Shown piece after piece: positions 16,597 to 40,206 of a stretch of 41,512 bases of DNA; position 1 is the stretch's first letter; each line of letters begins with the position of its first letter. The notes beneath the pieces are model-generated. The model had not been told where the DNA came from. It saw only the letters and a program-made list of their open reading frames with translations, and made no database searches. The translations under genes and the position numbers were made by a program. The stretch is from Acidobacteriaceae bacterium (GTDB lineage: Bacteria; Acidobacteriota; Terriglobia; Terriglobales; Acidobacteriaceae): the NCBI GenBank assembly GCA_030041435.1, contig JASHNW010000129.1, forward strand, positions 1-41,512, read 5' to 3'.

Positions 16597-16745
16597 CGAA
16601 AACGATGGCGGGGGGGCTGGGGCTGCGGTCGATACGGGTCGCGGCCGACGCTTCGCATTCACACGCCTGCGTGCTATCGTTTGGGGACATGACCGGAGCA
16701 GGGGTCACGATCCCGCCGGATTTCTTTCCGGCTTCGAGGAAGCTC

Positions 16746-18824
16746 ATGCGCGCAGCACGAACCGTGTGGACGGCGGCGGCAGTTCTGCTGGCCGCCGGAG
16801 CACTTTCTGCCCAGCAACTCTCGTTCTCGCCCGATACCACCACGTCCACCACGCCGACGGAGCCGAAGGCGCCGCACAGCTTCGATCTGAGCGCAATCGA
16901 CAAGACGGCCGACCCCTGCGTGGACTTTTACCAGTACGCCTGCGGGAACTGGCGGAAGGCGAATCCGATTCCGGGCGACCAGTCGCGGTGGGGACGGTTC
17001 AACGAGCTGGCGGAGCGCAACCGCTATCTGCTTTACGAGGATCTGGAGCGGGCGGCGACGCAACCGAAGACGGCGCTGGAGCGGAAATACGGGAACTTCT
17101 TCGCGGCGTGCATGGATTCGGACCGGGCGGATGCGCTGGGAGACACGCCGATTCTGCCGACGGTGAAGCGCATCGAGGCCATGAAGAACAAGAAGCAACT
17201 GGCGGCAGCGGTGGCGTGGATGGACGCGAACGACGGGACGGGCGGATTTTTCCGGTTTGAGGTGCAGCAGGACCAGAAGGATTCGTCGCAGCAAATCGAA
17301 GGCGTGGGCCAGGGCGGTCTGACGCTGCCGGACCGCGATTACTACATCGAAGACAACCCGCGGATGGCGAAGATCCGGGAGGAGTATCGCAGCTACATCG
17401 TGACGGTGCTGAAGCTGACGGGCGACTCCGAAGAGCAGGCGGCGACGGAAGCGGGGCAGGTGATCGGGATCGAGACGGCGCTGGCGAAGGCGTCGACGCC
17501 GCGGGCGGAGCTGCGCGATCCGGACAAGCGATATCACATTATGACCATCGCGGAGCTGGAGGGTCTGGAACCGAACTTTGACTGGGCGGTTTATTTCAAG
17601 GGGATTCACGCGCCGGTGGTGGACACGCTGAACGTGGCGCAGCCGGACTTCTTCAAGGCGCAGAACCAGGTGCTCAACGACGAGAGCCTGGATGCGCTGA
17701 AGGCGTACATGAAGTTCCACGCCATCAACGGCGCGGCGCCGTGGCTTTCGCAGCCATACGAGGATGCGAACTTCGATTTCTTCCAGAAGACGCTGCAGGG
17801 GCAGATGGAGCAGACTCCGCGGTGGAAGCGGTGCACGGCCGCGACCGACCGGGCGATGGGCGAAGCGGTGGGGCAGGACTGGGTGAAGGAGAATTTCCCG
17901 CCGCAGGACAAGGAAGCGATGGAGCAGCTGGTGGCGGCGCTGAAGAAGGCGCTGGCGGACGACATTCAGTCTCTGCCGTGGATGACGGACGCGACCAAAG
18001 CGCAGGCGGAGCAGAAGCTGGACGAGTTTCGGCAGAAGATCGGCTATCCGGACAAGTGGCGCGACTACAGGGCGCTGAAGGTGACGCGGACGAATTTCAT
18101 CACCGACCTGCACCACGCCGCGGAGTTCCAGTTCAATTACGAGCTGAATAAAGTGGGCAAGCCGGTGGACGAGAAGGAGTGGGGCATGACGCCGCCGACG
18201 GTGAACGCCTATTACGATCCGCCGATGAACGACATTAACTTCCCGGCGGGCATTCTGCAGCCGCCGTTCTACGACGCGAAGATGGATCCGGCGGTGAACT
18301 TCGGCGGCATCGGGGTGGTGATCGGCCACGAGATGACGCACGGCTTCGACGACGAAGGCAGCAAGTACGACGGCCACGGGAACGTGAAGAACTGGTGGAC
18401 TCCGGCGGACCGTGCGGCGTTCGAGCAGAGAACGGACTGCGAAGTGAAGGAGTACGACGGCTTCGAGCCGGTGGCGGGAGTGCATCTGAACGGGAAGCTC
18501 ACGCTGGGCGAGAACACGGCGGACAACGGCGGCATCCACATTGCGTGGCAGGCGCTGCAGGCAACGCTGGCGCAGCAGGGCAAGAGCATCTCCGACAAGA
18601 TTGACGGCTACACGGAGGCGCAGCGGTTCTTTATCTCGTTCGCGCAGATCTGGTGCGAGAACCGGACCGACCAGTCGTCAAGGGTTTCGGCGAAGACCGA
18701 TCCGCATTCGCCGGGAAGGTTCCGCGCCGACGGAGTGGTGCGGAACTTCGACGAGTTCGGAAAGGCCTTCGGCTGCCACGAGGGGCAGCCGATGATGCCG
18801 GAAGACGCCTGCCGGGTTTGGTGA
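16746..18824 (+). CDS. M13-family (neprilysin/PepO-like) zinc metallopeptidase
   Basis: A 692-residue exported endopeptidase of family M13. After a signal peptide (about 1-22, ending LSA) come the M13 N-terminal domain, beginning at DPCVDFYQYACGNW, and the catalytic domain. Zinc ligands and catalytic residues are complete: HEMTH (528-532) and the downstream ENTAD (Glu589, Asp593), with the usual NAYY, GGIGVVIGHE and final CRVW-type C-terminus. It should cleave peptides outside the cytoplasm. ATG 16746 is chosen for its GAGGAAG ribosome site and because the signal peptide starts there; ATG 16689 would add 19 residues. It is single, and a heptamer array starts 3 bases after its stop. Confidence 0.95.
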   Translation: MRAARTVWTAAAVLLAAGALSAQQLSFSPDTTTSTTPTEPKAPHSFDLSAIDKTADPCVDFYQYACGNWRKANPIPGDQSRWGRFNELAERNRYLLYEDLERAATQPKTALERKYGNFFAACMDSDRADALGDTPILPTVKRIEAMKNKKQLAAAVAWMDANDGTGGFFRFEVQQDQKDSSQQIEGVGQGGLTLPDRDYYIEDNPRMAKIREEYRSYIVTVLKLTGDSEEQAATEAGQVIGIETALAKASTPRAELRDPDKRYHIMTIAELEGLEPNFDWAVYFKGIHAPVVDTLNVAQPDFFKAQNQVLNDESLDALKAYMKFHAINGAAPWLSQPYEDANFDFFQKTLQGQMEQTPRWKRCTAATDRAMGEAVGQDWVKENFPPQDKEAMEQLVAALKKALADDIQSLPWMTDATKAQAEQKLDEFRQKIGYPDKWRDYRALKVTRTNFITDLHHAAEFQFNYELNKVGKPVDEKEWGMTPPTVNAYYDPPMNDINFPAGILQPPFYDAKMDPAVNFGGIGVVIGHEMTHGFDDEGSKYDGHGNVKNWWTPADRAAFEQRTDCEVKEYDGFEPVAGVHLNGKLTLGENTADNGGIHIAWQALQATLAQQGKSISDKIDGYTEAQRFFISFAQIWCENRTDQSSRVSAKTDPHSPGRFRADGVVRNFDEFGKAFGCHEGQPMMPEDACRVW

Positions 18825-20390: not shown

Positions 20391-21653
20391 ATGAAGCTGA
20401 GCATTTTCGGCAAGCGGCTGCTGGCCGCTGTATCCACCGCGGCGGTGGCGGTGGGTATGGTTTCCTGCGGCGCCGGCAACACCGTGGACTACGTCTACGT
20501 GACCAGCAACAAGGTAAACCCGGGACAGATCAACGCCTACGCCCTGGATTCGGAGTCGGGGGCGCTGCACCAGCTGCAGGATTCGCCGTATCCTTCGGGC
20601 GGACGCAACCCGGTTTACGACGTGACCTCGCCGGACGGGAAGTATCTGTATGTAGCGAACCACGACGACAACACGATCGTGCAGTTCGACATTGGAACGG
20701 ACGGCAAGCTGTATCCGCTGCACACGGTGAATACGCCGGGAACGGAGCCGGTGGCCATGGCGGTAGATCCGGCGGGCGCTTACCTGTACGTGCTGGACTA
20801 CTACGCGCCGGCAGCGCCGGGGCAGCCGTCGTACACGGATCTGAATCCGGGGCCGGGGGCGGTGGTGATCTTCCCGATCAGCTCCACGGGCAGCCTGGGG
20901 ACGCCGGTCAGCGTGGGCGCGACGAACTACTTCCAGGTGCAGTGCTTCCCCAGCAACCTGGCCATCACACCGAACGGCAGCTACGTGTACGTGACCAACA
21001 CGAACGCCGTGGTGACCACCACGTCACCGCCGGTGACGGGCACGGTGCCGACACTGCCGGCCGGCTGTCCGGCGTACGGAACGGTTTCGGGGTTCTCGAT
21101 TGCCGCGTCTTCGGGCGGTCCGGTGCTGACGACGGTGGCGGGCAGCCCATTCAGCACGGGCGCGTCGTCGGAGCCGACGGCCATCCTGGCCGATCCGTCG
21201 AGCGGAGCGATCTATGTGGCCGACGCGGGGCTGAACCAGCTTTACACATTCACGGTGGGGTCGAGCGGGGCATTGTCGCTGGCCTCGACGGTGGCGACGG
21301 GAACGGAACCGATGGGCGGGACGGTGGTGAGCAACTCGTCGGGCAAGTTCCTCTACATTTCGAATTACATCGACGGGACGCTGAGCTCGTATGCGCTGGC
21401 CTCAGGGACGCCGGCGCCGATGGCGACCGCGACCGCCGGGGCATCGGGGCCGCTGTGCGTGCTGGCCGATCCGCGGCTGCAGCGGTTCCTGTACACCGCC
21501 GATTACACAGGCGGCCGGGTGGGCGGGGTTGAGCTGAACCCAGCCACCGGCGCTCTGATCACGAATCAGGGATCGCCCTATATAACATCGGGGCAGCCAA
21601 CCTGCGTTGCAGGGGTCACACACGAGCACGGAAATCCGAACGGGCTCGAGTAA
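20391..21653 (+). CDS. Lactonase-like beta-propeller lipoprotein, paralogue 2
   Basis: A 420-residue predicted lipoprotein. The signal peptide ends in MVSC at the expected place for lipidation, followed by blades with GKYLYVANHDDNTI, GAYLYVLDYY, GSYVYVTNT, GAIYVADAG, GKFLYISNY and RFLYTADYTGG, that is, six or seven repeats. The start is placed at ATG 20391 so that the N-terminus (MKLSIFGKR) aligns with the paralogues; ATG 20382 and 20370 are upstream alternatives. It begins 20 bases after paralogue 1 stops, so they are in one operon. Its closest relative in the window is paralogue 3, sharing the DYY/DFY, TNTNPG-like and CFPSN/CFPTG blocks. Confidence 0.88.
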   Translation: MKLSIFGKRLLAAVSTAAVAVGMVSCGAGNTVDYVYVTSNKVNPGQINAYALDSESGALHQLQDSPYPSGGRNPVYDVTSPDGKYLYVANHDDNTIVQFDIGTDGKLYPLHTVNTPGTEPVAMAVDPAGAYLYVLDYYAPAAPGQPSYTDLNPGPGAVVIFPISSTGSLGTPVSVGATNYFQVQCFPSNLAITPNGSYVYVTNTNAVVTTTSPPVTGTVPTLPAGCPAYGTVSGFSIAASSGGPVLTTVAGSPFSTGASSEPTAILADPSSGAIYVADAGLNQLYTFTVGSSGALSLASTVATGTEPMGGTVVSNSSGKFLYISNYIDGTLSSYALASGTPAPMATATAGASGPLCVLADPRLQRFLYTADYTGGRVGGVELNPATGALITNQGSPYITSGQPTCVAGVTHEHGNPNGLE

Positions 21654-21741
21654 ATGGCTGACACCGGAGCACACGCCGGATTTTAGAATGAAGCGGGAGC
21701 GATCCCGAGACTTTGGCGCCCGCAAGGGACGAAGGAAGAGC

Positions 21742-23016
21742 ATGAAGTTGACGAGAATCGGTCAGGGGTTACTGGCCACCGCAGCGAGTCTGGCAGTGGG
21801 GCTGGGCATCGCCTCGTGCAACCCCGGCAGCACCATCGACTATTTGTTTGTCACCTCGAGCAGCACCGGCTCGGGCTCGAGCTGCACGGGGTGCGTCAGT
21901 GCGTACCACGTGAATTCGTTCACGGGCACGCTGACCGAAGTGGCTGGGTCGCCGTTCTCGTCGCAGGGAACCGACCCGGTAGCTGAAGTGGCCTCGCCGA
22001 ACCAGCAGAATCTATACGTGGCCAACAACGGCACCAACACGATTGTGGAATTCACGATCGGCACCAACGGTCAACTCTCGGCCGGGCAAAGCTACACGAC
22101 GCCGGGCGCCCAACCGGTGGCGCTGGCTATCAACCAGACGGGCACGCTGCTGTTCGTGGTGGATTTCTACCAGGCGGGATTCACGGACACGAATCCTGGG
22201 CCGGGCGAGCTGATCGTCTATCCCATCAACTCCGACGGAACCCTAGGGTCGCCGGTGGCGAATGGCGGAGCCTCCTACACCCCGCTGCAGTGTTTCCCCA
22301 CCGGAGTTGCGATCACGCCGAGCGGCACGAATCTATATGTGAGCAACACTAATTCGTTCATCGTGACGACGGCGGCGCCGAGCACGTCGACACCTCCGCC
22401 GACGCCCTCCGTATGTCCGTCGCAGGGGACGATTTCGGGGTTCACGGTAGGCTCAGGCGGGACGCTGACGGCCGTGTCGGGCAGCCCCTTCCAGGCGGGA
22501 TCGACTCCGACCGCGCTGGCTATCGACCCAACCAGCCGGTTTCTATATGCGACGGACAGCGTGCAGAACCAGCTGATTGCCTATCAAATTCAGACTGCGG
22601 GCGTGCTGTATCCACTGACGAACGGGCCGTTTGCGACGGGGGGAACGTTTCCGGTGGGAATCACGGTGGACCCGCGCGGGCTCTATCTGTACGTGACCGA
22701 TTACAACTCCAAACAGATCAGCGAATATGCGATCTCGCAGGCGACGGGAGCACCTTCGGCGAGCGCGTCGGCTTCGTTCTCGACCAGAGCGGCCAGCCCG
22801 ACCTGCGTCGTGGTGGATCCGGCGCTGGGCCGCTATCTGTATACATCGGATTTCACGGGCGGATCGCTGACGGGCGCATCGCTGAATCCCAGCACCGGCG
22901 CGCTGACCGCGCTGCAGAATATGCCGTACGCGGCGAACGGGTCGCCAACCTGCGTGACGGCCATACCGCACGGCAACCACTCGACACAGTTTGTGTCGCC
23001 GGTTTCCGGCAACTAG
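21742..23016 (+). CDS. Lactonase-like beta-propeller lipoprotein, paralogue 3
   Basis: A 424-residue predicted lipoprotein. A signal peptide with a clean IASC lipobox is followed by blades marked QNLYVANNG, GTLLFVVDFY, GTNLYVSNTN, RFLYATDSV, GLYLYVTDYN and RYLYTSDFTGG. Ribosome site GAAGGAAG and start MKLT copy those of paralogue 1. A CTGCVSAYHV segment near residue 50 adds two Cys not present at that place in paralogue 2. The family is known for seven-bladed propellers; the ligand or enzyme function here is unknown. It ends just before the tRNA-derived junction and is the last clearly chromosomal gene. Confidence 0.88.
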   Translation: MKLTRIGQGLLATAASLAVGLGIASCNPGSTIDYLFVTSSSTGSGSSCTGCVSAYHVNSFTGTLTEVAGSPFSSQGTDPVAEVASPNQQNLYVANNGTNTIVEFTIGTNGQLSAGQSYTTPGAQPVALAINQTGTLLFVVDFYQAGFTDTNPGPGELIVYPINSDGTLGSPVANGGASYTPLQCFPTGVAITPSGTNLYVSNTNSFIVTTAAPSTSTPPPTPSVCPSQGTISGFTVGSGGTLTAVSGSPFQAGSTPTALAIDPTSRFLYATDSVQNQLIAYQIQTAGVLYPLTNGPFATGGTFPVGITVDPRGLYLYVTDYNSKQISEYAISQATGAPSASASASFSTRAASPTCVVVDPALGRYLYTSDFTGGSLTGASLNPSTGALTALQNMPYAANGSPTCVTAIPHGNHSTQFVSPVSGN

Positions 23017-23093: not shown

Positions 23094-23139
23094 ACACCAT
23101 GGTGTGCATGGGTGTCCGGACAAGCCTGTCTTTAAAGAC
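23094..23139. other. Cluster of three perfect palindromes
   Basis: ACACCATGGTGT (23094-23105), TGTCCGGACA (23113-23122) and GTCTTTAAAGAC (23128-23139) are each perfect and loopless, within 46 bases. They lie immediately beyond the CCA end of the tRNA fragment, on the chromosomal side. Confidence 0.7.
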
Positions 23140-23151
23140 GCCGATTCTGTT

Positions 23152-23194
23152 TGGCGTTTCCGACGGGATTTGAACCCGTATTATCGCCGTGAAA
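23152..23194 (-). other. 3' half of tRNA-Glu(UUC): candidate integration site of a mobile element
   Basis: On the minus strand this reads, 5' to 3', the anticodon loop TTTCAC, anticodon-stem strand GGCGA, a short variable loop, the T arm ACGGG-TTCAAAT-CCCGT, the acceptor strand CGGAAAC, a discriminator G and an encoded CCA. The order and spacing match tRNA-Glu with a UUC anticodon. The 5' half (acceptor GTTTCCG, D arm, 5' anticodon stem) is absent beyond 23195. A fragment that starts exactly in the anticodon loop and keeps the 3' end is what tyrosine integrases leave at the far end of an integrated element. Confidence 0.75.
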
Positions 23195-23248
23195 AATTGA
23201 AACTACAAAGCACGATTGGCCTCAAATAGTGCGTTTCGGCTCCCTGGG

Positions 23249-23275
23249 AACCCATATCGAACCCATATCGAACCC
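23249..23275. repeat. 11-bp direct repeat beside the tRNA fragment
   Basis: AACCCATATCG occurs at 23249-23259 and 23260-23270, followed by AACCC. It is 55-80 bases from the tRNA core on the presumed element side, a position where integrase arm-type sites are found in other systems. No protein evidence is available. Confidence 0.75.
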
Positions 23276-23649
23276 GCGATCGATGCCGCAGAGTTTAGAT
23301 GGGCTTGCGCGCACGAAATCGGAACGCATACAGGCTCAGATCGACCCGCGCTCCCGCTAAACCAGCGGCGGTCGAGTTCTCCGACTCCAATCCCCGAGGA
23401 GGTACGAACGTCAGCCTATTCCGAAATTTCGAACCTCTGCGGCAGACCGTGACTAAAGTCACTGAGGCGGGCTCGCGCCGACGTCAAAATTGCCTGGGAT
23501 GTGCCGTAAATCGATCTCCAGGGAGCGATTTCTGAGAGTCCATTCATTGCAATAACGAGACTTAGGTCGGGGCCAAAGGACAGGCGAGCCGGCTCGGGGC
23601 GCAAGGCAAGAGTGTTGCAATTGCAACTCAACTACACCAGAGAAAAGTC
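23276..23649. other. Intergenic region at the island edge
   Basis: These 374 bases have no convincing gene. Short frames on both strands lack ribosome sites and family resemblance. The right end carries the palindrome at 23614-23627 and the presumed nnrS promoter. Confidence 0.5.
23614..23627. promoter_or_regulatory. Perfect 14-bp palindrome upstream of nnrS, candidate operator
   Basis: GTTGCAATTGCAAC is a perfect palindrome ending 22 bases before the GTG start at 23650. Its position suits an operator for a dimeric regulator. It is not an Fnr consensus (TTGAT-N4-ATCAA). Confidence 0.45.
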
Positions 23650-24975
23650 GTGAATCCATTGGTTTCAATCGGCACGCCGGAATCAGAAACTGCGCGGATC
23701 ACCGGCGAACGTCGCAGCCAGCATCTGGTGACGGCATTTGTTATCACAGGTCTGCTGTTCATGCTGTTGCCGGGCACCTTTCTGGGCGTGTGGAACCTGC
23801 TGAACATCTCCCAGGAACATGGATCTGGCTCGATTTCGCAGGCCTGGATTCAGGCGCATGGGCAGGCACAGATTTTCGGCTGGGTTGGCTCCTTCATCCT
23901 CGGGATCGGCTTCTACTCCCTGACGAAGATGAAGAGCACGAGAGGGTTTCCGGCGAGAGCCGCATGGCTGTCCTGGGCGTTGTGGTCTGCAGGTGTGCTG
24001 GCGCGCTGGTTCGGCGGCGTAACGGGCGACGGCTGGAGGATCGTACTGCCACTTTCTGGTGCCCTGCAACTGGCGGCATTTGTCCTGTTCTTCTTGTCGG
24101 TGCGGAGGCATCGGCCGGAGCCTGGCGGGAAAAAGCCGGAAGTCTGGGCGCGGCTGGTCGTCGCGTCCACCGTCGTCTTTATGCTTGCTCTGGTGTCGAA
24201 CTGCGTTCTGCTGTTCCACCAGGCACTCGTCGCGAATACTCCCGCGCTGCCTCATGTACTGGATGAGCAGTTTGTGGTCCTGGCGGTATGGGGCGTCCTG
24301 GTTCCAACGATCTGGGGATTTAACGCGCGATGGCTGCCGGTGTTTCTGGGTCTGCCCCAACCCGCCGAACGCACACTTTACGCAGCATACGATCTCAGCC
24401 TCGTCGGCATCGGCGCCACTTTCCTTTCGTGGTTGCCGGTCGCCGCAGTTGCCTTCTTCGTCTCCACATGGCTGGCGATCGATGGACTGCACATCTGGAA
24501 GCCGGCAATCAACCCGCCCAAAATTGTGCATGTCGATCCGCGATTTCCATGGTTTGTACGCCTTACCTATACCTGGTTGGCGATCTCGAGTGTTCTCGGC
24601 ATGCTTGCCGTAGTCTGGGACTCTTCGGGAGGAATCTGGGGCGCCAGCCGACACGCCGTCACTGTTGGATTTGTCGCAGCGATGGTGTTTTCGATCGGAC
24701 TGCGCGTGCTGCCGGCGTTCTGCGGGATGCGCATCCTCTGGAGCACGCGGCTCATGTTCTGGTCGCTGGTCCTGCTTTTCACCGGATGCTTCCTGCGCGT
24801 TCTGGCCGAGCCGCTCGCTTATCAGAACATCTGGGCTCCTGCCTGGAAGATTCTGCCGGTGTCCGCGATCATCGAACTGAGTGCTGTAACGTTTTTTGCG
24901 CTGAACATGGCCGTGACGCTGCTGCAGCCGCCGGCCCATTTGCGGGCTCAGCCGGCCGCGGCGGCTCGCGGTTGA
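23650..24975 (+). CDS. nnrS: NnrS family haem-copper membrane protein
   Basis: A 441-residue integral membrane protein with about twelve hydrophobic segments. NnrS signatures are present: an early His-containing block AHGQAQIFGWVGSFILGIGFY (about 75-95), the FNARWLPVFLGL segment and the late block SRHAVTVGFVAAMVFSIGLRVLPAF. NnrS proteins bind haem and copper and protect cells from nitric oxide; they are usually controlled by NO-responsive Crp/Fnr regulators. Start GTG 23650 is preceded only by a weak AGAGAAAAG. It is the first gene inside the presumed island. Its neighbours, a GAF protein and an Fnr-like regulator, and the nirK further along support the NO role. Confidence 0.9.
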   Translation: MNPLVSIGTPESETARITGERRSQHLVTAFVITGLLFMLLPGTFLGVWNLLNISQEHGSGSISQAWIQAHGQAQIFGWVGSFILGIGFYSLTKMKSTRGFPARAAWLSWALWSAGVLARWFGGVTGDGWRIVLPLSGALQLAAFVLFFLSVRRHRPEPGGKKPEVWARLVVASTVVFMLALVSNCVLLFHQALVANTPALPHVLDEQFVVLAVWGVLVPTIWGFNARWLPVFLGLPQPAERTLYAAYDLSLVGIGATFLSWLPVAAVAFFVSTWLAIDGLHIWKPAINPPKIVHVDPRFPWFVRLTYTWLAISSVLGMLAVVWDSSGGIWGASRHAVTVGFVAAMVFSIGLRVLPAFCGMRILWSTRLMFWSLVLLFTGCFLRVLAEPLAYQNIWAPAWKILPVSAIIELSAVTFFALNMAVTLLQPPAHLRAQPAAAARG

Positions 24976-25004
24976 GGTGGTGACACATCTGCCCGTGTAT
25001 CGAT

Positions 25005-25499
25005 ATGCAGTCTGATGGTATGAGGGATTCGCAATTTCAGGAGATTATCGAGGAGATCCGGCGCTTCGCGGACACGGCGCCGGATCTGGCATCGCTGCAG
25101 GATTTCTGCGTTCTGCGCATCTCCGAGAGTCTGCCCTGTTACGACTGGGTTGGTTTCTACATGCTGGATGAGAACGATCCGGGCGTTCTGAAGCTGGGAC
25201 CCTACCGTGGCGCTCCCACGGAACATGTGCGGATTCCGATCACTGAGGGAATCTGCGGCGCAGCGGTGGCACAGCGCGAGATCATCGTCGTGGATGATGT
25301 CAGGGCAGATCCGCGGTACCTTGCCTGCTCGGTGGAAACGAAGTCGGAGATTGTAGTGCCGATTCGCGCGAACGGAGACATTGTCGGCGAGATCGATGTC
25401 GACAGCCATACGCCTCGCGCCTTCGGCCAGCAGGATCGGGAGTTCCTGGAGCGGGGCGCGGCCATTGTTGGCGAGTACATCACGGGACATCGGGCGTAA
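25005..25499 (+). CDS. GAF-domain protein resembling free-methionine-(R)-sulfoxide reductase
   Basis: A 164-residue single GAF domain. The stretch from RIPITEGICGAAV through VVDDVRADPRYLAC to SEIVVPI and IDVDSHTPRAF aligns well with the fRMsr (YebR/MsrC) family, which reduces free methionine-R-sulfoxide. Of the three Cys used by that enzyme, two are present: Cys84 in GICG and Cys108 in LAC, the catalytic position. The first is replaced by His74. Two Cys can still make a working thiol pair in principle, so activity is plausible but uncertain. It starts 29 bases after nnrS and is probably in its operon. ATG 25005 is used; ATG 25020 is an alternative, and neither has a clear ribosome site. Confidence 0.8.
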   Translation: MQSDGMRDSQFQEIIEEIRRFADTAPDLASLQDFCVLRISESLPCYDWVGFYMLDENDPGVLKLGPYRGAPTEHVRIPITEGICGAAVAQREIIVVDDVRADPRYLACSVETKSEIVVPIRANGDIVGEIDVDSHTPRAFGQQDREFLERGAAIVGEYITGHRA

Positions 25500-25966
25500 A
25501 ATCCACAGGCCCGAGTCATCTGCTTCGATACCCGGGTACGGCGAGTCATTTGCAAATGAGACAGCCCCCGATAGCAGCCGCCTGAAAGTGGGTGAAATTC
25601 GAATCGATCGGGCCCAATACCTCCTGGGACTTCTGTGCATCGCGAAGGTATGAATGCTTCATTGATTCAGACTGCTCAACCTCCAAGACTGGAACTATGA
25701 GATACGGCGGAATCCATGAATATGAGCCTGGAAGAATTCGCCCGATTGCGCCGGTTGCCGCTTCGATGACTGCTGTTGCGCCGCGAGCGCAACGTTCTCG
25801 TCGGGAACCCACAGTATTGGTCGCGGAGGGATCTGCAGGACGAAGCGCGCAAACTTGCGACCGAAGCCTCCGATATTCTGCACCGATCCTCAGGAAAGCA
25901 GCGCGAGGGAACGAACCTCCGCGGGCAGTATCAAAACGGTGCAATTCCCTGAAGGCGCTGCGGAGA
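25500..25966. other. Leader region of the Fnr-like regulator, with palindrome and interrupted small frame
   Basis: This stretch is 467 bases long. A perfect 14-bp palindrome TCATTTGCAAATGA lies at 25546-25559. An ATG at 25716 opens a frame of 17 codons ending in TGA at 25767-25769; the same frame then runs open for about 60 more codons to a TGA near 25950, with protein-like composition (LLLRRERNVLVG, DLQDEARKLATEASDIL). The regulator's own frame is also open upstream to at least 25697, so a longer N-terminus cannot be excluded. Confidence 0.45.
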
Positions 25967-26701
25967 GTGCTGTTGTTCAGAAATCTTCCCGGAGACGCAT
26001 GGAGCCTTCTCATGCAACAAATCGTTCGCATGACACTCGAGCCGGACGAGATTCTGTTTGTGGAAGGCGAGGCAAGTAAGGGCCTGTATGTCGTGGAATC
26101 TGGTCTCCTGAAGCTGTACAAGGTTTCCCGGGAAGGCCGCGAGCAGATACTGGCGACATACGGGCTCGGCCACACCCTGTCAGAACTGCCGACGGTCGAT
26201 GGCGGTCTGCAGCCTTTCTGTTCCGCGGCAGTGATTCGATCGGCGGTGCTCCTGATCCCAGGAGCGACCATTCAGCAGCTTTGCAGACTTCATGCCGGGT
26301 GTGCTCAGCAAATGCTTCACATCGTGGCCAGGCGGCTGCGCAACGCTCTCGGCATGATTGAAGAGCTGTCATTTTCCACCGTCCGGACTCGCCTGGTCGC
26401 TTACCTGCTGCGTCTCGCAGCCCCAGTCAGAGCACAACCCAATGCCGCGTACCTGCATTTGTCAGGCAGCCAGGAAATCGCGGCCCAGATTGGCACCGTC
26501 CGGGAAGTGGTCTCGCGCCACTTGAGCCGGCTGCAGGAGCAGGACCTCATCCGGATCAACCAGCGTACCGTTCACATTCCCGACGTCCGGCGCCTCGCGA
26601 CAGAAATCGCCGATGCCTCCCTCTACCTCACGCATGAGGCTCGCAATCCGGAGGTGCAAGCCGCCACGGAGAAGCAGGCGGGCTGCAGCAGGGATTCCTA
26701 A
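25967..26701 (+). CDS. Crp/Fnr-family transcriptional regulator
   Basis: A 244-residue regulator: cyclic-nucleotide-binding-like effector domain (about 1-115, with LEPDEILFVEGEASKGLYVV and SGLLKLY), a long dimerisation helix (about 118-145) and a winged helix-turn-helix with SQEIAAQIGTVREVVSRHLSRL. The recognition helix keeps the E-x-x-S-R pattern of Fnr. No N-terminal Cys cluster for an iron-sulfur sensor is seen, so the signal may be haem/NO as in Dnr-type members, or something else. The GTG at 25967 gives a family-typical length, but the frame is open further upstream (ATG 25697) and the true start is uncertain. It is probably the local regulator of the NO genes. Confidence 0.85.
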   Translation: MLLFRNLPGDAWSLLMQQIVRMTLEPDEILFVEGEASKGLYVVESGLLKLYKVSREGREQILATYGLGHTLSELPTVDGGLQPFCSAAVIRSAVLLIPGATIQQLCRLHAGCAQQMLHIVARRLRNALGMIEELSFSTVRTRLVAYLLRLAAPVRAQPNAAYLHLSGSQEIAAQIGTVREVVSRHLSRLQEQDLIRINQRTVHIPDVRRLATEIADASLYLTHEARNPEVQAATEKQAGCSRDS

Positions 26702-26779
26702 GCCCATGATCGGACAGGCATCTCCTCAGAGTGAATCGCGGCAGGAGCCCCGGCGTCATTTCGGAAGAGGAGAGTCATC

Positions 26780-26905
26780 ATGGAAAAACAGATCACGGGT
26801 GCGCGAGGGTACGCCTGTCCCATGCACCGGGATGGCGCTTCCATTGTTTCGCCGGGTCCGCAGCAGCAGAATGCAAACGGAACTTCGCGATGGGAGCACC
26901 GATGA
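26780..26905 (+). CDS. 41-residue micro-protein with a CPMH motif
   Basis: ATG 26780 is preceded by a strong GAGGAGAG site at ideal distance, and the frame runs 41 codons to a TGA that overlaps the next gene's ATG (ATGA at 26902-26905). The peptide holds GYACPMHRDG near residues 10-19. This resembles the start of the heavy-metal-binding YxCPMHP domain found in copper resistance proteins, but the second Cys pair of that domain is missing, and the tail is Gln/Asn/Ser-rich. Strong ribosome site plus stop-start overlap argue for real translation. It may bind a metal, or act as a leader that couples translation to the guanylyltransferase. No name is assigned. Confidence 0.6.
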   Translation: MEKQITGARGYACPMHRDGASIVSPGPQQQNANGTSRWEHR

Positions 26906-27951
26906 CAGAACGACTGCAGAATCCGGAAACGCATCACCACTGGGGCGTAATTCTCGCCGGCGGTGACGGTGTTCGTCTGAAACCGCTCACCCGCCTGGCC
27001 TGTGGCGACAACCGCCCCAAGCAGTTTTGTTCGTTGTTCCGGGGCAAGACACTGCTCAGACAGACGCAGAACAGGATTTCCGGCGCCATAGCACCCGATC
27101 GCGTGTTGTTTGCCCTGACCCGTACGCACGAGCAGTTTTTTGCAGAGGCGCTGGAACAGGTGCCGTCCGTTCGCAAGGTTGTGCAATCGGTGAATCGCGG
27201 GACGCTGCCTGCCATTCTCTGGAGCCTTCTGCGGGTTCTCCGTCTCGACCCGCTTGCCACGGTTGCGTTCCTTCCCTCGGATCACTATTTCGGGGACGAG
27301 CCGGGATTTGGATCCGCGCTCGACCGGGCCTTTGTTCAGGCTGAATCCACGGATTCGATTGTGCTGCTGGGTGCAACTCCGAATCGTCCCGAGACCGAAT
27401 ACGGCTGGATCGAGCCAGTGGACGCTGCGTGGGAAAGAGCGGGTGTCTCCAGGGTGAAACGATTCTGGGAAAAACCTTCGCATGAGGTGGCCGAGCGGCT
27501 CTTCGCGCAGGGGTGCCTCTGGAACACCTTTGTGATGGTTGGGGCGGCCCGCGTGTTTCTGGCGATGATTCGACGCGCCACTCCCGGTATTTGCGAGGCA
27601 ATGGACTCCCTGATGTCCGGGGTCTACCTCGGCGGGGAGGAAGAGGGAATGCAGAGGCTCTACTGGCAGCTGTCGCCCTGGGATTTCTCGCGGGACGTGC
27701 TGTCGGCCAGCGCAGACCTTCTCACCATTGTCAGCTCCGGTGATATCGGATGGAGCGACCTGGGCGATCCCCGGCGTTTCATCGCCGCACTCATCGCAGA
27801 AGGAGAGGAGATTCCGAGCCGTCTCGAAGGCTTCTGCTCCGAGTGCTGCCCGCGGCCGTCGTCTCCGGCATCCGCCAATCCCGGCATTGTGCCACCGATG
27901 AACGCAGTGCCGGCGGCGTCCAGTCATCATCGTCAGGAGCGCACACTATGA
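26902..27951 (+). CDS. Mannose-1-phosphate guanylyltransferase-like sugar nucleotidyltransferase
   Basis: A 349-residue soluble enzyme. The N-terminal nucleotide-binding signature LAGGDGVRLKPLTR followed by RPKQF is typical of mannose-1-phosphate guanylyltransferases (GTP plus mannose-1-P to GDP-mannose). FLPSDHYF, TEYGWIEP, FWEKPS, WNTFVMV and GWSDLGDPRRF follow in the expected order. The C-terminal isomerase domain of longer ManC proteins is absent, and the last 40 residues are Ser/Pro-rich. ATG 26902 has GGGAGC upstream and overlaps the micro-protein stop. Its own TGA overlaps the ATG of the RIC-like gene. A sugar-nucleotide enzyme locked between a CPMH peptide and an NO-repair-type protein is an odd context; glycan modification under the same control is one idea. 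Confidence 0.88.
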   Translation: MTERLQNPETHHHWGVILAGGDGVRLKPLTRLACGDNRPKQFCSLFRGKTLLRQTQNRISGAIAPDRVLFALTRTHEQFFAEALEQVPSVRKVVQSVNRGTLPAILWSLLRVLRLDPLATVAFLPSDHYFGDEPGFGSALDRAFVQAESTDSIVLLGATPNRPETEYGWIEPVDAAWERAGVSRVKRFWEKPSHEVAERLFAQGCLWNTFVMVGAARVFLAMIRRATPGICEAMDSLMSGVYLGGEEEGMQRLYWQLSPWDFSRDVLSASADLLTIVSSGDIGWSDLGDPRRFIAALIAEGEEIPSRLEGFCSECCPRPSSPASANPGIVPPMNAVPAASSHHRQERTL

Positions 27952-28646
27952 TCCGAACCGCCGATTCTATTCGTCGTATCGTCAGGAGCCAGTCACCGTC
28001 CGCGGAGAGCATCGCTGCAGCAGGCATCGATCCCTGCCGCCCAAACGGGCCGTTGCCAGGCGAAGTATGGTGCGAGCTGGAAGTTCCCACGAACGAAATG
28101 TCCCGCGCCGTCAGGACGGGCAGCACCTGTGAGTTCCTGATTCTCCGTGTCCTGCGCCGGGAGCATGCAGATTTGAGAGCCGAGCTTCGCCAGCTACAAG
28201 CTCGGGCCGCAGCCATCGCCGACCGTCACGGCTCCAGGCATCTCGAACTGCACGTCATCCGGGAACTCGTCGAGGAACTAGCGTCCAAACTGGTCCTCCA
28301 CATGAATGCAGAGGAGAGCACCGTGTTTCCCGCCCTATTGGATCTGGAACTGGCCTATCTGGGCGAGCGCTACTTACCTGCGGCGAGCATGAGAGTCGGC
28401 GATCTGCTCGAGAGTATGGCCGAGGAACATCGATTGGCCGGACAAACGCTCCAGCGGCTCTGCCGGGAAACGTCCGGATTTTGCTCACCGGGAAACACCG
28501 GCAGCGAATCTCAGGAATTCTATGGCCGTCTCCGCACGCTCTACAGTGGGCTGCGCCACGACCTGGATGTGGAAAACAACGTCCTGTTTCCCCGCGTTAC
28601 GCAGATGGAAGCAGAGCTTTTGCGCGGGACAAGCCTTCTTCACTAG
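27948..28646 (+). CDS. ScdA/YtfE (RIC)-like hemerythrin protein
   Basis: A 232-residue protein with the architecture of RIC di-iron proteins that help repair iron-sulfur clusters after NO or peroxide damage. An N-terminal ScdA_N-like block (about 5-34: SIRRIVRSQ, AAAGIDPC) precedes a hemerythrin four-helix domain with His73, His118 and Glu122, His161 and His204 with Glu209 (REHADL, LHMNAEESTVFP, EEHRLA, RHDLDVENNVLFP). The usual Cys-Cys of ScdA_N is reduced to a single Cys30, followed by RPNG. ATG 27948 has AGGAG 8 bases upstream and overlaps the previous stop (ATGA), so it is translationally coupled. It fits the NO theme of the region. Confidence 0.85.
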   Translation: MIRTADSIRRIVRSQSPSAESIAAAGIDPCRPNGPLPGEVWCELEVPTNEMSRAVRTGSTCEFLILRVLRREHADLRAELRQLQARAAAIADRHGSRHLELHVIRELVEELASKLVLHMNAEESTVFPALLDLELAYLGERYLPAASMRVGDLLESMAEEHRLAGQTLQRLCRETSGFCSPGNTGSESQEFYGRLRTLYSGLRHDLDVENNVLFPRVTQMEAELLRGTSLLH

Positions 28647-28675
28647 CGGATTCAGACCGCCGGGCGGATCGTCGA

Positions 28676-29170
28676 TCAGTAGTCGGCGACGAACTTCCGG
28701 ATGCCTTTTGTCGTCAGCTCGTGCCGGATGTCGAATGTTTCCCAGCGCTGGTTCAGGTTCAGCTCTTCGTAAGGGATTGGTGCGCCGGCAGGCTTACAGA
28801 CGAAGTTCTCACCGGGCAAAGGCATTCCCTGGGCGGCCCACTCTGCCAGGACTTTCATGGGGACCGTAACGAGTTCCGCGTCATAGTGGAACGAACAAAG
28901 CAGATGCTGGAGGCTGCGAATGCTGGCCGCGAGGACCAGCACGTTCACCTCGGGATTTTCGCGATCAGCGACGGATTCGTCGTTTGCCCGTCCACGAATC
29001 GAGCAGGCTCCGGATGTACTGGGTGCCGTGGGGGCATCCGGGTCGACGAGGATTTTGGAGGGAGGACGCTTTGAGAGGATCTTGCCCTTTGCGTTCGCTG
29101 CTCCTGGATCGGGCATCGGAGTACCTGGAGAGTCGCCGTAAGTTAAGTATGTCGCTTCACGATATAACAT
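28676..29170 (-). pseudogene. Frameshifted and internally deleted transaldolase-like gene
   Basis: The minus-strand frame from ATG 29170 is open for 164 codons, and its C-terminal half is clearly transaldolase/fructose-6-phosphate-aldolase-like: VLAASIRS, LVTVPMKVL, then FDIRHELTTKGIRKF. The N-terminal family signature is present but in other frames: KILVD in the open frame near 29050, GTQYIRSLLDS one frame away, and FVDGQTTNPSLIAK in the third frame near 28960-29010. Then about 140 residues, including the barrel centre with the Schiff-base Lys, are missing before VLAASIRS. A good ribosome site (AGGAAGGAC) still precedes the ATG, so a scrambled 164-residue product might be made, but it cannot be an active transaldolase. 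Confidence 0.75.
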
Positions 29171-29288
29171 GTCCTTCCTGAGAGTTGCGGCCTGCGATGG
29201 TATGTTCGTGCGCCGCGATGGTACGCGCACTCCATTGTGAGTTTCGAGGTTCGGTGCGGAAATAGGCGTGAAAAGGAGGAAACGCCCA

Positions 29289-29867
29289 ATGAAAGCCACC
29301 GAAGTCCTGGAACGAGAGCACAGGGTAATCGAGCAAGTAGCGGAGACATGCGGAACCTGCGCCGAGGCTCTGCGGAAGGGAATGAAAATTCCATCCAATG
29401 TGCTCGAGAGCATCGTTGCATTCATGCGCATCTACGGCGGTCAGTACCACGAACAAGAGGAGGAGCGCCTGTTGAGCATGCTGCGCGCGAAAGGCGTGCC
29501 CGCCGGAAGCTGTCCCGTCGCGTCGCTGGAACACGAGAAACAGAGGCTGTCGGTGCTGCTCGATCAGCTCGCCAGCGCTGTTGAGGTCTATGGGCAGAGC
29601 GGGGGCAGTGTGAGCGGCACGCTGATCGATACGCTGCTGTCGATTGCCGAGTCCTGGCCGGATCACATCTGGAAGGAGAACTATCTGCTGCTGCCCATGG
29701 CAGACAAATTGTTTTCGGAAGAGGATCAGCGGGTCCTCGGGCAGGCCCTGCAGACGATCGACTCCAGCAACGGTGAAAAGGCGCGGAAGACAGTCGACGA
29801 GTTCAATGCCGCCATCCGGCTGTGTTCGGAGAGCGCAGCGTTGTGGGAGCGCGCCAGCGTTGCGTGA
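29289..29867 (+). CDS. Hemerythrin-domain protein
   Basis: A 192-residue four-helix protein of the hemerythrin HHE cation-binding family. Metal-ligand candidates are His11 (EREHRVI), His54 and Glu58 (GQYHEQEEE), His82 (LEHEKQRL) and a late His with Glu in PDHIWKENYLLLP. Such di-iron proteins bind O2 or NO, or act in iron and redox sensing. Three Cys lie outside the metal helices (CGTC near 21-24 and GSCPV at about 75). The start ATG 29289 follows AAGGAGG. It is divergent from the broken transaldolase and followed after 29 bases by a cupin, with which it should be cotranscribed. It is the second hemerythrin in 2 kb. Confidence 0.88.
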   Translation: MKATEVLEREHRVIEQVAETCGTCAEALRKGMKIPSNVLESIVAFMRIYGGQYHEQEEERLLSMLRAKGVPAGSCPVASLEHEKQRLSVLLDQLASAVEVYGQSGGSVSGTLIDTLLSIAESWPDHIWKENYLLLPMADKLFSEEDQRVLGQALQTIDSSNGEKARKTVDEFNAAIRLCSESAALWERASVA

Positions 29868-29896
29868 GCAGTCAATCAGAGGAACGGAGGATTGAG

Positions 29897-30409
29897 ATGC
29901 AGGAAGCGATGAGCAACACGCAGAGTACTGAGGGCGGCGGCGCACAGCCGTTTGGATTTCTCACGGGGACGCGTCTTCCGATACCGACCGGGGGGCCCGT
30001 CCTGAGCATCGATCTGGCGGGTGCCTTACGGCTGATGCAGCACGAACAGAGATGGTCCGGCAACCGGAATGCGATGATCCTGATCAAACACCGGGATCTT
30101 CGGCTGGTGCTGTCGGCACTGCGTGCGGGTGCGCGACTGGCTCAGCACAATGTTCGCGGTACAGTGCTGCTTCAGGTCCTCAAGGGCAAGATTCGTGTCG
30201 GGTTTCTGGACGCTGTGCTGGAGGCAAGCGCCGGCGAGGTTGTATCCCTGGACGCCAATCTGGGACACGAAGTGAAAGCCCTCGAAGATGCGGTCCTGCT
30301 GATTGCGATCGCCTGGCCGGAGGGCAGCAGGCTGACCCCTGCCACACCTCCGTCTCAGGCTGAGGATCCGTTCTGGGACTGGCGTGCCGATGAGTCCGTG
30401 TGGAACTGA
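29897..30409 (+). CDS. Cupin-domain protein, larger form
   Basis: A 170-residue protein. A Gly/Pro-rich N-terminal part (about 1-45) leads into a small beta-barrel cupin (about 55-155), recognisable by NAMILIKHRDLRLVL, ALRAGARLAQHNV, GTVLLQVLKGKIRVGF, LEASAGEVVSL and LGHEVKALEDAVLLIAIAW. Metal-ligand His positions are partly kept (AQH, GHE). The C-terminal tail ends in DPFWDWRADESVWN. Start ATG 29897 has GGAGG six bases upstream. It follows the hemerythrin gene closely and reads toward the ferredoxin gene, with which it converges. The function is unknown; a second, smaller cupin is at 40207. Confidence 0.8.
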   Translation: MQEAMSNTQSTEGGGAQPFGFLTGTRLPIPTGGPVLSIDLAGALRLMQHEQRWSGNRNAMILIKHRDLRLVLSALRAGARLAQHNVRGTVLLQVLKGKIRVGFLDAVLEASAGEVVSLDANLGHEVKALEDAVLLIAIAWPEGSRLTPATPPSQAEDPFWDWRADESVWN

Positions 30410-30481
30410 CGGGCCGAACGAAGGCTGCCACGCCTCCTCTCTCCCATGGAAAAGGGCACGGCAGCCAGATCCACGGAGTGT

Positions 30482-30742
30482 TCAGCGTCCGTAATGTTTG
30501 GCGTTGATTTCGGCGTATTGCTTCCATTTGTCGGGAAGATCGTCGCCGGCAAAGATGGCGGAGACCGGACAGACCGGCACGCAGGCGCCGCAGTCAATGC
30601 ATTCGACGGGATCGATGTAGAGCTGTTGTGCCGTTTCGTATTCCGATTCCCGCTTGCTGGGATGGATGCAGTCCACCGGGCAGGCATCGACGCAGGCGGT
30701 GTCTTTTGTACCGATGCAGGGTTCAGCGATGACATAGGCCAT
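30482..30742 (-). CDS. Seven-iron-type ferredoxin (3Fe-4S plus 4Fe-4S)
   Basis: An 86-residue ferredoxin with eight Cys: Cys9, Cys17, Cys21 and Cys25, then Cys48, Cys51, Cys54 and Cys58. The wide Cys9-x7-Cys17-x3-Cys21 spacing is the mark of the FdxA-like class that carries one 3Fe-4S and one 4Fe-4S cluster, while the second group (CxxCxxCxxxCP) is a standard 4Fe-4S site. It is an intracellular low-potential electron carrier. ATG 30742 follows GAGGAG at a good distance. It is divergent from the PAS-LuxR regulator, 124 bases apart, and may be controlled by it. Its likely partners in the window are unclear, since the 2-oxoacid enzymes nearby are NAD-type E1 components and not ferredoxin-linked. 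Confidence 0.93.
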   Translation of the reverse strand: MAYVIAEPCIGTKDTACVDACPVDCIHPSKRESEYETAQQLYIDPVECIDCGACVPVCPVSAIFAGDDLPDKWKQYAEINAKHYGR

Positions 30743-30866
30743 GGTTCAAACTCCTCAATCCAGTGTGGATCCAAATCTTTTGAAGGTCTGTGACAAAAGT
30801 CCCGGAAATCGGCAGGGCATTCCCGTACGCTCCTCAACAGTGATGCTTCGCACGAGGAGCTGCCCA

Positions 30867-31520
30867 ATGCTGGAGAGTGAATTGTTTACATTTCTGGGCC
30901 GAACCGCCGATGCTGTGTTCGTTCTTTCGGACCAGGGAGAGATTGCATTTTGGAACAAGGCCGCGGAGCGCCTGTTTGGATATCCGGCCGAGGAAGTGAA
31001 AGGTAAGACGTGCTACCGGGTTCTGCAGGGGATTGGAGCACTCGGTACGCGCGTGTGCCATGAGGGGTGCACCGTGCTGGAATGCGCGGGAAAGCAGTCC
31101 GAAATCCCCAATTTCGATATGAGTGTAAAGACGCGCTCCGGGCAGCGAGTGTGGATCAACATGTCGACAGTCCTCTTCGACAATCCGCGAACCGGGCACC
31201 GACTGCTGGTCCATCTTGCTCACGACATCAGCGAGCAGAAGAAGACAGAACAATTGGTTCACAAAGTGCTCGATCTGACGCAACAGCTCAATCACGTGGG
31301 CGAAGCGACCTGTCGCGCCGCGCCCGTGTCCGATTTGTCAGAGCAGGAAAAGCAGGTGCTGCGGCTATTCGCGGAGGGCAAAACTCCCGTAAGCATTGCC
31401 AAATCGCTGGATATCAGCTCACAAACCCTGAGAAACCACCTGCACCACATCAACCAGAAACTGCGCACGCATAACCGGCTGGAAGCGGTGATGCACGCGA
31501 TGCACAGAAAGCTCATCTGA
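30867..31520 (+). CDS. PAS-domain LuxR-type regulator with Cys cluster
   Basis: A 217-residue one-component regulator. A PAS domain spans about 1-125 (ADAVFVLSDQGEIAFWN, FGYPAEEVKGKTCY, TGHRLLVHLAHDISEQ), and a LuxR/GerE helix-turn-helix closes the protein (LSEQEKQVLRLFAEGK, then SIAKSLDISSQTLRNHLHHI). Cys49, Cys64, Cys68 and Cys73 lie in the PAS domain as C-x14-C-x3-C-x4-C. Cys in this region occur in related PAS proteins and could hold a metal or cluster, which would suit redox or NO sensing; this is inference. ATG 30867 is preferred for its GAGGAG site; ATG 30843 is weaker. It is upstream of the dehydrogenase operon by 20 bases and divergent from the ferredoxin, and could regulate both. 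Confidence 0.85.
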   Translation: MLESELFTFLGRTADAVFVLSDQGEIAFWNKAAERLFGYPAEEVKGKTCYRVLQGIGALGTRVCHEGCTVLECAGKQSEIPNFDMSVKTRSGQRVWINMSTVLFDNPRTGHRLLVHLAHDISEQKKTEQLVHKVLDLTQQLNHVGEATCRAAPVSDLSEQEKQVLRLFAEGKTPVSIAKSLDISSQTLRNHLHHINQKLRTHNRLEAVMHAMHRKLI

Positions 31521-31540
31521 CTCGCAGGACAGGAGCAGCC

Positions 31541-32629
31541 ATGGCAACCACAGTCGAACCAACCCGAATTGCCGCCGACGTGCTGATGGAGAAGCAGTCC
31601 CCTGAACCGGACGGCGCACTCTACCGCCGGCTGTACTCCTACATGCTGAAATGCCGCATGGTGGAGGAGCGCATTCGCGTTCTCTATCGCCAGGGGCGCT
31701 TCGCCGGAAACTACTTCGCGGCCGTAGGACAAGAGGCAACCGAGGTTGGCGTCACGCTCGATCTGCTGCCCGAAGACACGATCGCTCCGTCGCATCGGAA
31801 CTTCGTTACGCACATCATGAAAGGCACGCCGCTGCCGCTGATGTTTGCCCAGATCTACGGACGGAAGACGAGTCCGGACCAGGGCCGCTCAGCACCGGCA
31901 CACTGCGGGTACGCACCGCTGAATGTCATCACGCCCTCTTCGACGATTGCTGCGCAGCTCAATGTCGGAACGGGGATTGCGCTGGCGTACACAATGCGGC
32001 GCCGCCCCAATGTGGTCGTAGCGCTCTCCGGAGAAGGATCGACCAGCCTGGGATTCTGGCATGAAGCCGTGAATTTTGCCGGCGTCCGGCGGCTACCGAT
32101 CCTCATCGTCGTCGAGAACAACGGCTATGCGGAATCAGTTCCCGTTGCGCTGCAGACCGCCGTCGACGACATCAGCGTCAAAGCTCAGGCGTATGGAATT
32201 CCGGGAGTCTCGGTGGATGGCAACGATGTAGTTGCCGTGTACGCGGCCGCTCGCGAGGCCATCGATCGAGCGAGGAAGGGCGAGGGGCCGACCCTGCTCG
32301 AATGCAGGACCTACCGCTGGTACGGCCACTCCGAAATCGATCCGGCCAAATACCGCGATCCAGCGGAAGTCGCGTACTGGAAGGCCAGGGACCCCATCAC
32401 CGCCATGGAACTCCGTCTGGAATCGGCGCAGCTCTGGACAGAGCGGTGGAAGCGAGAACTGGAGTCGGAGTTCACGCGGGAAATCGATGAAGCCATCGCG
32501 TTTGCCGAGAGTTCACCGGCGCCCGAAGGGAAAGAAGCTCTGGATGAGGTGTATTCGTTCAGCATTCGCGAGCGAGAACTGGAGCGGAAGGTTTGGGAGC
32601 CGCGCTTTACCGTCGGGCGGGCGGAATAG
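31541..32629 (+). CDS. 2-oxoacid/acetoin dehydrogenase E1 component, alpha subunit
   Basis: A 362-residue thiamine-diphosphate enzyme subunit. Signatures are GNYFAAVGQEATEVG, the thiamine-binding motif beginning GEG (164-166; usually GDG) and ending ENN (192-194), and the phospho-loop region YRWYGHSEIDPAKYRDP. It resembles the pyruvate/acetoin dehydrogenase E1 alpha type (PdhA/AcoA). With the beta subunit it decarboxylates a 2-oxoacid or acetoin and passes the acyl group to a lipoyl E2. ATG 31541 has CAGGAGC upstream. The beta subunit follows after 9 bases. No E2 or E3 gene is adjacent, so the complex must borrow them or use another acceptor. The exact substrate is not readable. Confidence 0.92.
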   Translation: MATTVEPTRIAADVLMEKQSPEPDGALYRRLYSYMLKCRMVEERIRVLYRQGRFAGNYFAAVGQEATEVGVTLDLLPEDTIAPSHRNFVTHIMKGTPLPLMFAQIYGRKTSPDQGRSAPAHCGYAPLNVITPSSTIAAQLNVGTGIALAYTMRRRPNVVVALSGEGSTSLGFWHEAVNFAGVRRLPILIVVENNGYAESVPVALQTAVDDISVKAQAYGIPGVSVDGNDVVAVYAAAREAIDRARKGEGPTLLECRTYRWYGHSEIDPAKYRDPAEVAYWKARDPITAMELRLESAQLWTERWKRELESEFTREIDEAIAFAESSPAPEGKEALDEVYSFSIRERELERKVWEPRFTVGRAE

Positions 32630-32638
32630 GAGATCGAT

Positions 32639-33625: not shown

Positions 33626-33635
33626 CGAGGTTCCT

Positions 33636-34583: not shown

Positions 34584-34631
34584 CTGCCAAATTCAACGGT
34601 TTCTCATAAGAGGCAGCATTTCTACCCTGGA

Positions 34632-36299: not shown

Positions 36300-36501
36300 G
36301 GATGATCTGTCCCGGGAAAGAAAGAAAATCGACCTGGCCGCTGCACCCAGTTTTATTTTCCGTCCGGGCATACTCAATGTGCTGCTCGTACCACGCGGTA
36401 GTACGATTATTTCCGGCTTTCACCTGTGGATGGTCCGTTTGACTCGCTCGCGCAGACTTCCGGATTTCTCTCGAGTGCGACGGGCGGGGGAATCTATCCC
36501 G

Positions 36502-37116: not shown

Positions 37117-37125
37117 GCGGCCGCG

Positions 37126-40148: not shown

Positions 40149-40206
40149 AGTTTGGTCTCCAGAGGCTAATCCAGTTGCAATCCGTGATCCTATGCCGCCT
40201 TGCCGC

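Follow-up and report, generated by a model that had tools for sequence, protein, structure and literature searches.

The closest described systems to the locus analysed here are the Islander-type islands in tDNA that use the anticodon subsite. As set out by Hudson, Lau and Williams (2014; PMC4383910), crossover takes place in the anticodon loop, the incoming element restores the tRNA gene, a 3′ half ending in CCA is displaced, and several islands can stand in tandem, every one with a fragment and an integrase of its own. Tyrosine recombinases are named there as the only enzymes known to have tRNA genes as targets.

The window spans all 41,512 nucleotides of contig C72 from the genome of an Acidobacteriaceae bacterium (G000; 5.77 Mb in 134 contigs). 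It contains a 3′ half of tRNA-Glu(UUC) that resembles the Islander-type systems in its CCA end and anticodon-loop crossover point. The window departs from those systems in its truncated integrase, in the decay of the half, in an intact tRNA-Glu found on a different contig, and in an outer flank of non-native appearance. The tandem islands on contig C98 of the same genome (C98:10501-41128) share with the window the tRNA gene, the break, and an integrase on the opposite strand beside the tRNA sequence, but their halves are undecayed, their integrases retain the catalytic domain, and their cargo comprises a primase/AAA-like protein and an ABC efflux operon. We interpret the 43 bases of the half as an old attR of a decayed tRNA-Glu island that was put in by a tyrosine integrase through anticodon-loop crossover, a reading to which we assign a probability of roughly 0.72. 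As a trace of island integration the scar is unremarkable; its use is that it sets the end and the direction of an island bearing copper nitrite reductase and NO-handling genes. A by-product of the analysis, a clade of large serine recombinases at tRNA genes, is more novel than the scar, which is of a known kind. The features of the window are as follows.

16605-18824, plus strand: M13 peptidase, host left flank, conserved together with the lactonases
21607-23016, plus strand: lactonase-like beta-propeller gene, third in a row, host left flank
23135-23146, minus strand: tentative P′ arm remnant, a weak match (9/12) to AATCAACGACTT
23152-23194, minus strand: displaced tRNA-Glu(UUC) 3′ half, anticodon loop to CCA, a decayed attR-like site
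23195-41218, no strand: putative island body, from the scar to the repeat that truncates the integrase
23638-40796, no strand: cargo collinear with pieces of the nitrite/NO clusters of G003 and G011
23650-24975, plus strand: NnrS-like protein (PF05940)
25005-25499, plus strand: GAF domain protein
25592-26701, plus strand: Crp/Fnr-type regulator
27750-28646, plus strand: hemerythrin domain protein
29268-29867, plus strand: hemerythrin domain protein
30741-31520, plus strand: PAS-LuxR regulator
34632-36377, minus strand: molybdopterin oxidoreductase fused to a cytochrome b561 domain
37126-39015, minus strand: copper nitrite reductase with a C-terminal plastocyanin-like domain (TIGR02376, 311 bits; NCBIfam cut-off 296)
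40938-41261, plus strand: tyrosine integrase remnant, N-terminal 107 codons, catalytic domain missing
41219-41512, plus strand: 294-bp repeat that cuts off the integrase and in which the contig stops; 98% identity to the end of C69

The displaced tRNA-Glu half and the related copies on C98

Read on the minus strand, positions 23194-23152 correspond to the 3′ half of tRNA-Glu(UUC), from TTTCAC in the anticodon loop through CCA. This bears out the initial annotation. The half is identical to the two copies on C98 at 40 of 43 positions. The three substitutions are transitions, and the two C98 copies are identical to each other across the 43 bases. A 35-base tRNA-Glu pattern has one match in the window, with one mismatch, and matched none of 100 dinucleotide shuffles at up to three mismatches, by which a chance origin of the half is excluded. 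The 5′ half, likewise described as missing, is indeed without a match in the window (20-base pattern, up to three mismatches). No complete tRNA was found in the window with ARAGORN or with Rfam at the gathering score; at permissive E-values, the single Rfam match over the site was below threshold and belonged to an unrelated plastid family (20.4 bits, E 0.18). The half lies between the open reading frames (ORFs) at 21607-23016 and 23650-24975 and overlaps no conserved protein-coding domain. It is a terminal, 3′-side tRNA fragment that reaches the end of the gene, and its break falls in the anticodon loop, one of the crossover subsites given in PMC4383910.

The placement of the break at the anticodon loop was upheld by comparison with other displaced tRNA-Glu halves from G000 and its relatives. 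Among the loci fetched, 13 tRNA-Glu 3′ ends lacked a normal 5′ half; setting aside the window half and L026, an intact variant gene, 11 others remained, as found with a pattern that begins at TTTCAC, to which halves broken further 3′ are invisible. The break of the window half is within a few bases of the break in these 11, all of which retain CTTTCAC and diverge from the tRNA within a few bases before it. The base preceding TTTCAC is T in the window half and C in the tRNA and the 11 other halves, and the start of the window half is not sharp to a single base. In 7 of the 11 (L011, L024, L028, L030, L205, L226 and L255), AGTTAC occurs exactly 15 bases before the break, a fixed spacing that looks like an integrase arm site. 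The AGTTAC-N15 arrangement is absent before the window half, a point against reading it as an attR.

A half of this kind might also be a dead tRNA-Glu duplicate with no tie to a mobile element. It is decayed, and its acceptor stem, paired with the present 5′ half, would contain two C-A mismatches. That reading is at odds with a break at the crossover point common to 11 other halves, and with the composition step and integrase remnant described below, and we consider it very unlikely.

The genome was searched with an 18-base T-arm pattern at up to two mismatches, which would miss a more divergent tRNA-Glu. Exact matches occurred at three places, namely the window half, an intact tRNA-Glu at C98:10501-10578, and a 3′ half at C98:20955-20997; a fourth place, at two mismatches, is within a tRNA-Thr. 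The intact tRNA-Glu that had been expected to the right is thus not in the window (ARAGORN), and the one found, on C98, is accompanied by two other islands. That the partner tRNA is not on the window contig counts against the attR reading. The Islander definition asks for an intact, correctly oriented cognate tRNA gene at a distance of 2-200 kb on one replicon; here the only intact tRNA-Glu(UUC) found is the C98 gene, and C72 stops in a repeat.

The order on C98 is an aminotransferase gene, the intact tRNA-Glu, an integrase (PF00589, 2e-28), a 10.4-kb island, the identical 3′ half, and a second integrase (PF00589, 1e-22), followed by about 19 kb to the contig end. From this arrangement, the tRNA-Glu of G000 took up two tandem islands (L005:10501-20000 and L006:1-20000), each with its own integrase; a TetR-ABC efflux operon and a large outer-membrane barrel protein are part of the second island. 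The single tRNA-Glu(UUC) found in G000 has accepted at least two islands, and probably three with that of the window. This use of one tRNA within G000 speaks for the attR reading. Other integrases or integrase remnants of G000 are found at the 3′ end of tRNA-Gln(CUG), tRNA-Met, tRNA-Arg and tRNA-Val, and near tRNA-Leu/tmRNA and tRNA-Ser (L147:177-1410; L185, L186, L189, L190 and L191). It is possible that G000 holds several tRNA islands.

The nitrite/NO cargo and the integrase remnant

The 3′ half displaced by a tRNA island is directed away from that island, which places the element to the right of 23194. Third-position GC is 0.78-0.89 in 18 ORFs left of 23150 and 0.62-0.75 in 20 ORFs to the right, in a set of ORFs chosen by a score that itself includes third-position GC. 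The orientation of the half and this step in composition agree with the earlier placement of the insert on the right, and the NO/nitrite gene content noticed there is confirmed in the block at 23638-40796. The right side also codes for a ferredoxin-like ORF, two E1 dehydrogenase subunits and an L-lactate dehydrogenase. A second, partial copy of the copper nitrite reductase gene (37126-39015) is located on contig C131 and is 80% identical.

Pieces of the cargo are collinear with the nitrite/NO clusters of the congeners G003 (contigs C9 and C27) and G011 (five contigs) at 67-86% DNA identity, and a weaker likeness (60-62%) starts at approximately 23397. The clusters of both congeners continue where the window block stops: that of G003 extends leftward through a DUF2249-cupin gene and a COX1 gene, and that of G011 extends rightward through a thiamine-pyrophosphate enzyme (named by eye). 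It follows that the window block is truncated at both edges. In G000, the COX1 stretch of G003 is matched on C131, and the genes further on are matched on C109. Its edges come to within about 200-450 bp of the half and within about 140 bp of the remnant of the integrase. The G003 cluster occupies another chromosomal place, next to the genes with matches on C131 and C109, and we count this in favor of the attR reading. A search of the fetched contigs, which are broken, gave no tRNA-Glu half next to the NO clusters of G003 and G011. Since the cargo is also present in two congeners without a detectable adjoining tRNA-Glu half, it need not have arrived by way of the window island. In a further congener, G007, relatives of NnrS and nitrite reductase lie about 160 bp from an intact tRNA-Lys(CUU) (L139:12155-13705, contig C414).

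The integrase remnant reported on the right is real, with 107 N-terminal codons (40938-41261, plus strand), its best match beside tRNA-Glu, and the polarity of an island integrase: the stop lies on the side remote from the half, as with both C98 integrases. The PF00589 catalytic domain has no match in the window contig at E 0.1, the gene being cut before the domain. Integrase models from Pfam, PHROGs and NCBIfam did not detect the remnant, a point against the attR reading. The remnant was compared by BLASTP with 1806 ORFs, all of 100 codons or more, taken from tRNA-Glu loci and the loci of other G000 integrases. There are 14 integrase places in G000, two of them on C98; two of the 12 others had fewer than 100 codons and were dropped, leaving 10 that were compared. 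Of the 12 rows returned, the first four are all at tRNA-Glu, two of the four being one gene fetched twice. The top match is an integrase beside tRNA-Glu in G003 (47% over 98 residues, E 1.6e-22), followed by integrases beside tRNA-Glu of G016 (E 3.4e-12, and 1.2e-9 for the gene fetched twice), an integrase beside tRNA-Met in G000 (E 2.8e-5), and the second C98 integrase (E 7e-4), with the rest above 0.4. By this comparison the remnant groups with the tyrosine integrases of the tRNA-Glu type, being closer to them than to other integrases of the genome, although the ranking is suggestive and no fair contest because the comparison set is richer in tRNA-Glu loci than in others.

The 294-bp repeat that cuts the integrase gene ends both C72 and C69, and elsewhere in the genome it matches only C69. 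The opposite end of C69 resembles a transposase gene by eye. Contig-end 25-mers were compared for C72, C69, C98 and C42 only; C72 and C69 were linked, and no link between C98 and C72, or any other among the four, was found.

The left flank and the proposed order of events

The left side of the window, with the M13 peptidase and the lactonases, is matched in 11 of 11 congeners, in G007 by the peptidase only, at a contig end. Behind the lactonases, no tRNA and no T-arm motif were found in any of the 10 congeners that are readable there (1.2 to 19.6 kb; G007 is not). At least one gene of a conserved block follows within 3.2 kb of the lactonases in eight of the 10, the exceptions being G003 and G004. 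The site behind the lactonases is unoccupied in those eight congeners, yet it is no empty tRNA-Glu attB. In G000, part of the conserved block is located at C42:13516-15861, about 12 kb behind an integrase and a tRNA-Gln.

The surroundings of tRNA-Glu in the congeners are of another kind. The tRNA-Glu pattern was matched in 9 of 11 congeners, and an aminotransferase gene precedes tRNA-Glu in each of the eight whose upstream sequence is long enough. A single contig of G003 holds tRNA-Glu and the lactonase block, 167 kb apart and in a relative orientation opposite to that required. The empty site sought in relatives was not found, as no relative examined joins tRNA-Glu to the lactonase flank; in that sense, the outcome that the initial annotation had named as a refutation, no empty site in any relative, is what was observed. 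The left flank of the window does not look like a native tRNA-Glu flank, so that the locus must afterwards have been rearranged or have lost one more island. The initial annotation had described the half as the left end of an integrated element. It was right that the scar is genuine, but the junction between scar and lactonase calls for one of these further events. As a complete account, plain insertion of the NO island into a tRNA-Glu next to the lactonases was discarded, since there is no tRNA at that place in any of the 10. A sugar-transferase gene (named by eye) follows tRNA-Glu in G007; its relatives, through which the native flank of tRNA-Glu was sought, are present in all 12 genomes of the genus searched, and the loci fetched around them gave no tRNA-Glu half, the sole match being the tRNA of G007 itself.

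The bases just outside the half bear on what once lay to its left. In tyrosine-integrase elements of the lineage, AATCAACGACTT follows CCA at a like offset. At 11 tyrosine-integrase loci the score after CCA is 7-11 of 12, with an offset of 3-5 in 10 of the 11, and at 12 loci with a downstream serine recombinase it is 4-6. The window scores 9 at offset 5, against backgrounds of 0.004 (random windows) and 0.016 (AT-rich windows) that flatter the match, because the motif was drawn from these loci after its likeness to the window had been noticed. With an earlier P′ arm matrix at fixed spacing, the window was not significant (0.06). The resemblance is a hint that the half was perhaps once a junction between two islands, combining the attR of the NO island with the P′ end of a lost left-hand island. 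The inner half on C98 is such a junction, and a lost neighbor would account for the foreign left flank. The lost island would have left about 136 bp before the lactonase stop. No left-hand island gene remains, and this, the post hoc origin of the motif and the value of 0.06 count against it. We regard this version as tentative, at clearly less than even odds.

Alternatively, a chance rearrangement or transposition could have brought a C98-type junction and the NO genes beside the lactonases, with no integration at this spot. The lactonase-block neighborhood seen in eight congeners is indeed broken here, part of the block is on C42, and the contig ends in a repeat common to C69. Taken alone, such an event gives no account of an integrase remnant and a tRNA half at opposite ends of one block with the right polarity, and we judge it unlikely.

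If the 43 bases are an old attR, as we prefer, a tyrosine integrase would have crossed over in the anticodon loop of tRNA-Glu(UUC). The element’s own copy of the 3′ half would have restored the tRNA, and the host’s original 3′ half would have been displaced to the far end, where, freed from selection, it could have acquired its three transitions. The island to the right of the scar (23195 to about 41218) would have consisted of the nitrite/NO cargo and then the integrase at the tRNA-proximal end; the repeat would subsequently have cut the integrase to its N-terminal 107 codons, with loss of mobility. Younger islands, of which the two in tandem on C98 are the presumed representatives, would later have entered the same tRNA-Glu, making the window island the oldest and outermost. 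A rearrangement, or the loss of a further island, would then have joined the outer island end to the lactonase genes.

Large serine recombinases at tRNA genes

The gene behind tRNA-Glu in the congeners G002 and G008 is a large serine recombinase, and entry of the window island through an enzyme of this kind has to be weighed, given that such genes occupy the same tRNA within the genus. Against it, the remnant belongs to the tyrosine type, the flank motif resembles that of tyrosine elements, and G000 has no match to the serine recombinase at E 1e-30. Displaced tRNA pieces were also sought in six stretches of 60-80 kb around such genes. Nothing longer than 12 bases was found in four (G055, G075, G102 and G199); G060 has a weak, partial tRNA match (E 0.07) besides an intact tRNA-Arg, and G240 has a weak, partial match of 28 bases (E 0.02). 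Serine-type entry of the window island is accordingly the least probable of the alternatives and seems highly improbable to us.

The clade is of interest in its own right. Its members have Resolvase, Recombinase and zinc ribbon domains, and a search of 397 genomes of the order with the G008 protein, at E 1e-30, hit 44, all in the window’s own family. The loci examined were the best 30 of 53 match rows (L203-L232); examples of such genes are L038:10002-11516 and L040:2377-3879. Among these best 30 of 53, the reading frame enters an intact tRNA from its 3′ end in 22. Inspection added four more, of which two enter tRNA-Glu halves, one enters a tRNA-Glu missed by ARAGORN, and one reads past a tRNA-Arg, for a total of 26 of the best 30 of 53. 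The four exceptions in that set (L228, L230, L231 and L232) are among the least similar proteins, at 29-33%. In the same best 30 of 53, the tRNA types entered are Glu(UUC), Glu(CUC), Met, Pro, Ala, Arg and Gln, with tRNA-Glu as the main one, and in 20 of the 22 the frame ends 21-64 bases into the tRNA, the other two reading past it. The last codons of these genes, usually including the stop, are thus supplied by the antisense of the tRNA. The G008 query itself abuts a tRNA, so near relatives may share this place by descent; the varied tRNA type among relatives speaks for repeated targeting. Against it stand the six long stretches, in which no displaced tRNA piece exceeded 12 bases in four and those in the other two were weak and partial, and the flanked case of G128, which holds a tyrosine integrase as well.

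These arrangements suggest that tRNA-Glu may be a docking site for two unrelated recombinase families, with the serine clade as putative integrases at the 3′ end of tRNA genes, and we put the chances of this at about even. If they are such integrases, they probably act without displacing a long tRNA fragment. In a 2023 Mycobacterium survey (PMC10654092), 16 of the 23 sites used by tyrosine integrases in M. abscessus are reported to overlap a tRNA or tmRNA gene, and satellites that carry serine integrases to insert elsewhere. Among the titles and abstract openings screened, we found no earlier report of tRNA-directed large serine recombinases, which does not prove that none exists. Should the proposal hold, tRNA genes would be no preserve of tyrosine integrases, and arrays such as that of C98 and the window could arise by the alternating use of both enzymes. 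Confirmation would alter the set of islands that tRNA-based finders are liable to miss, and serine integrases with conserved targets would become available.

Both recombinase types meet in G128 (contig C3, L253-L255), where a serine recombinase and a tyrosine integrase are present in one interval between two tRNA-Glu halves. Because the tyrosine integrase shares the interval with the serine-type gene, the outer half is assignable to neither enzyme. Another tyrosine integrase follows that interval.
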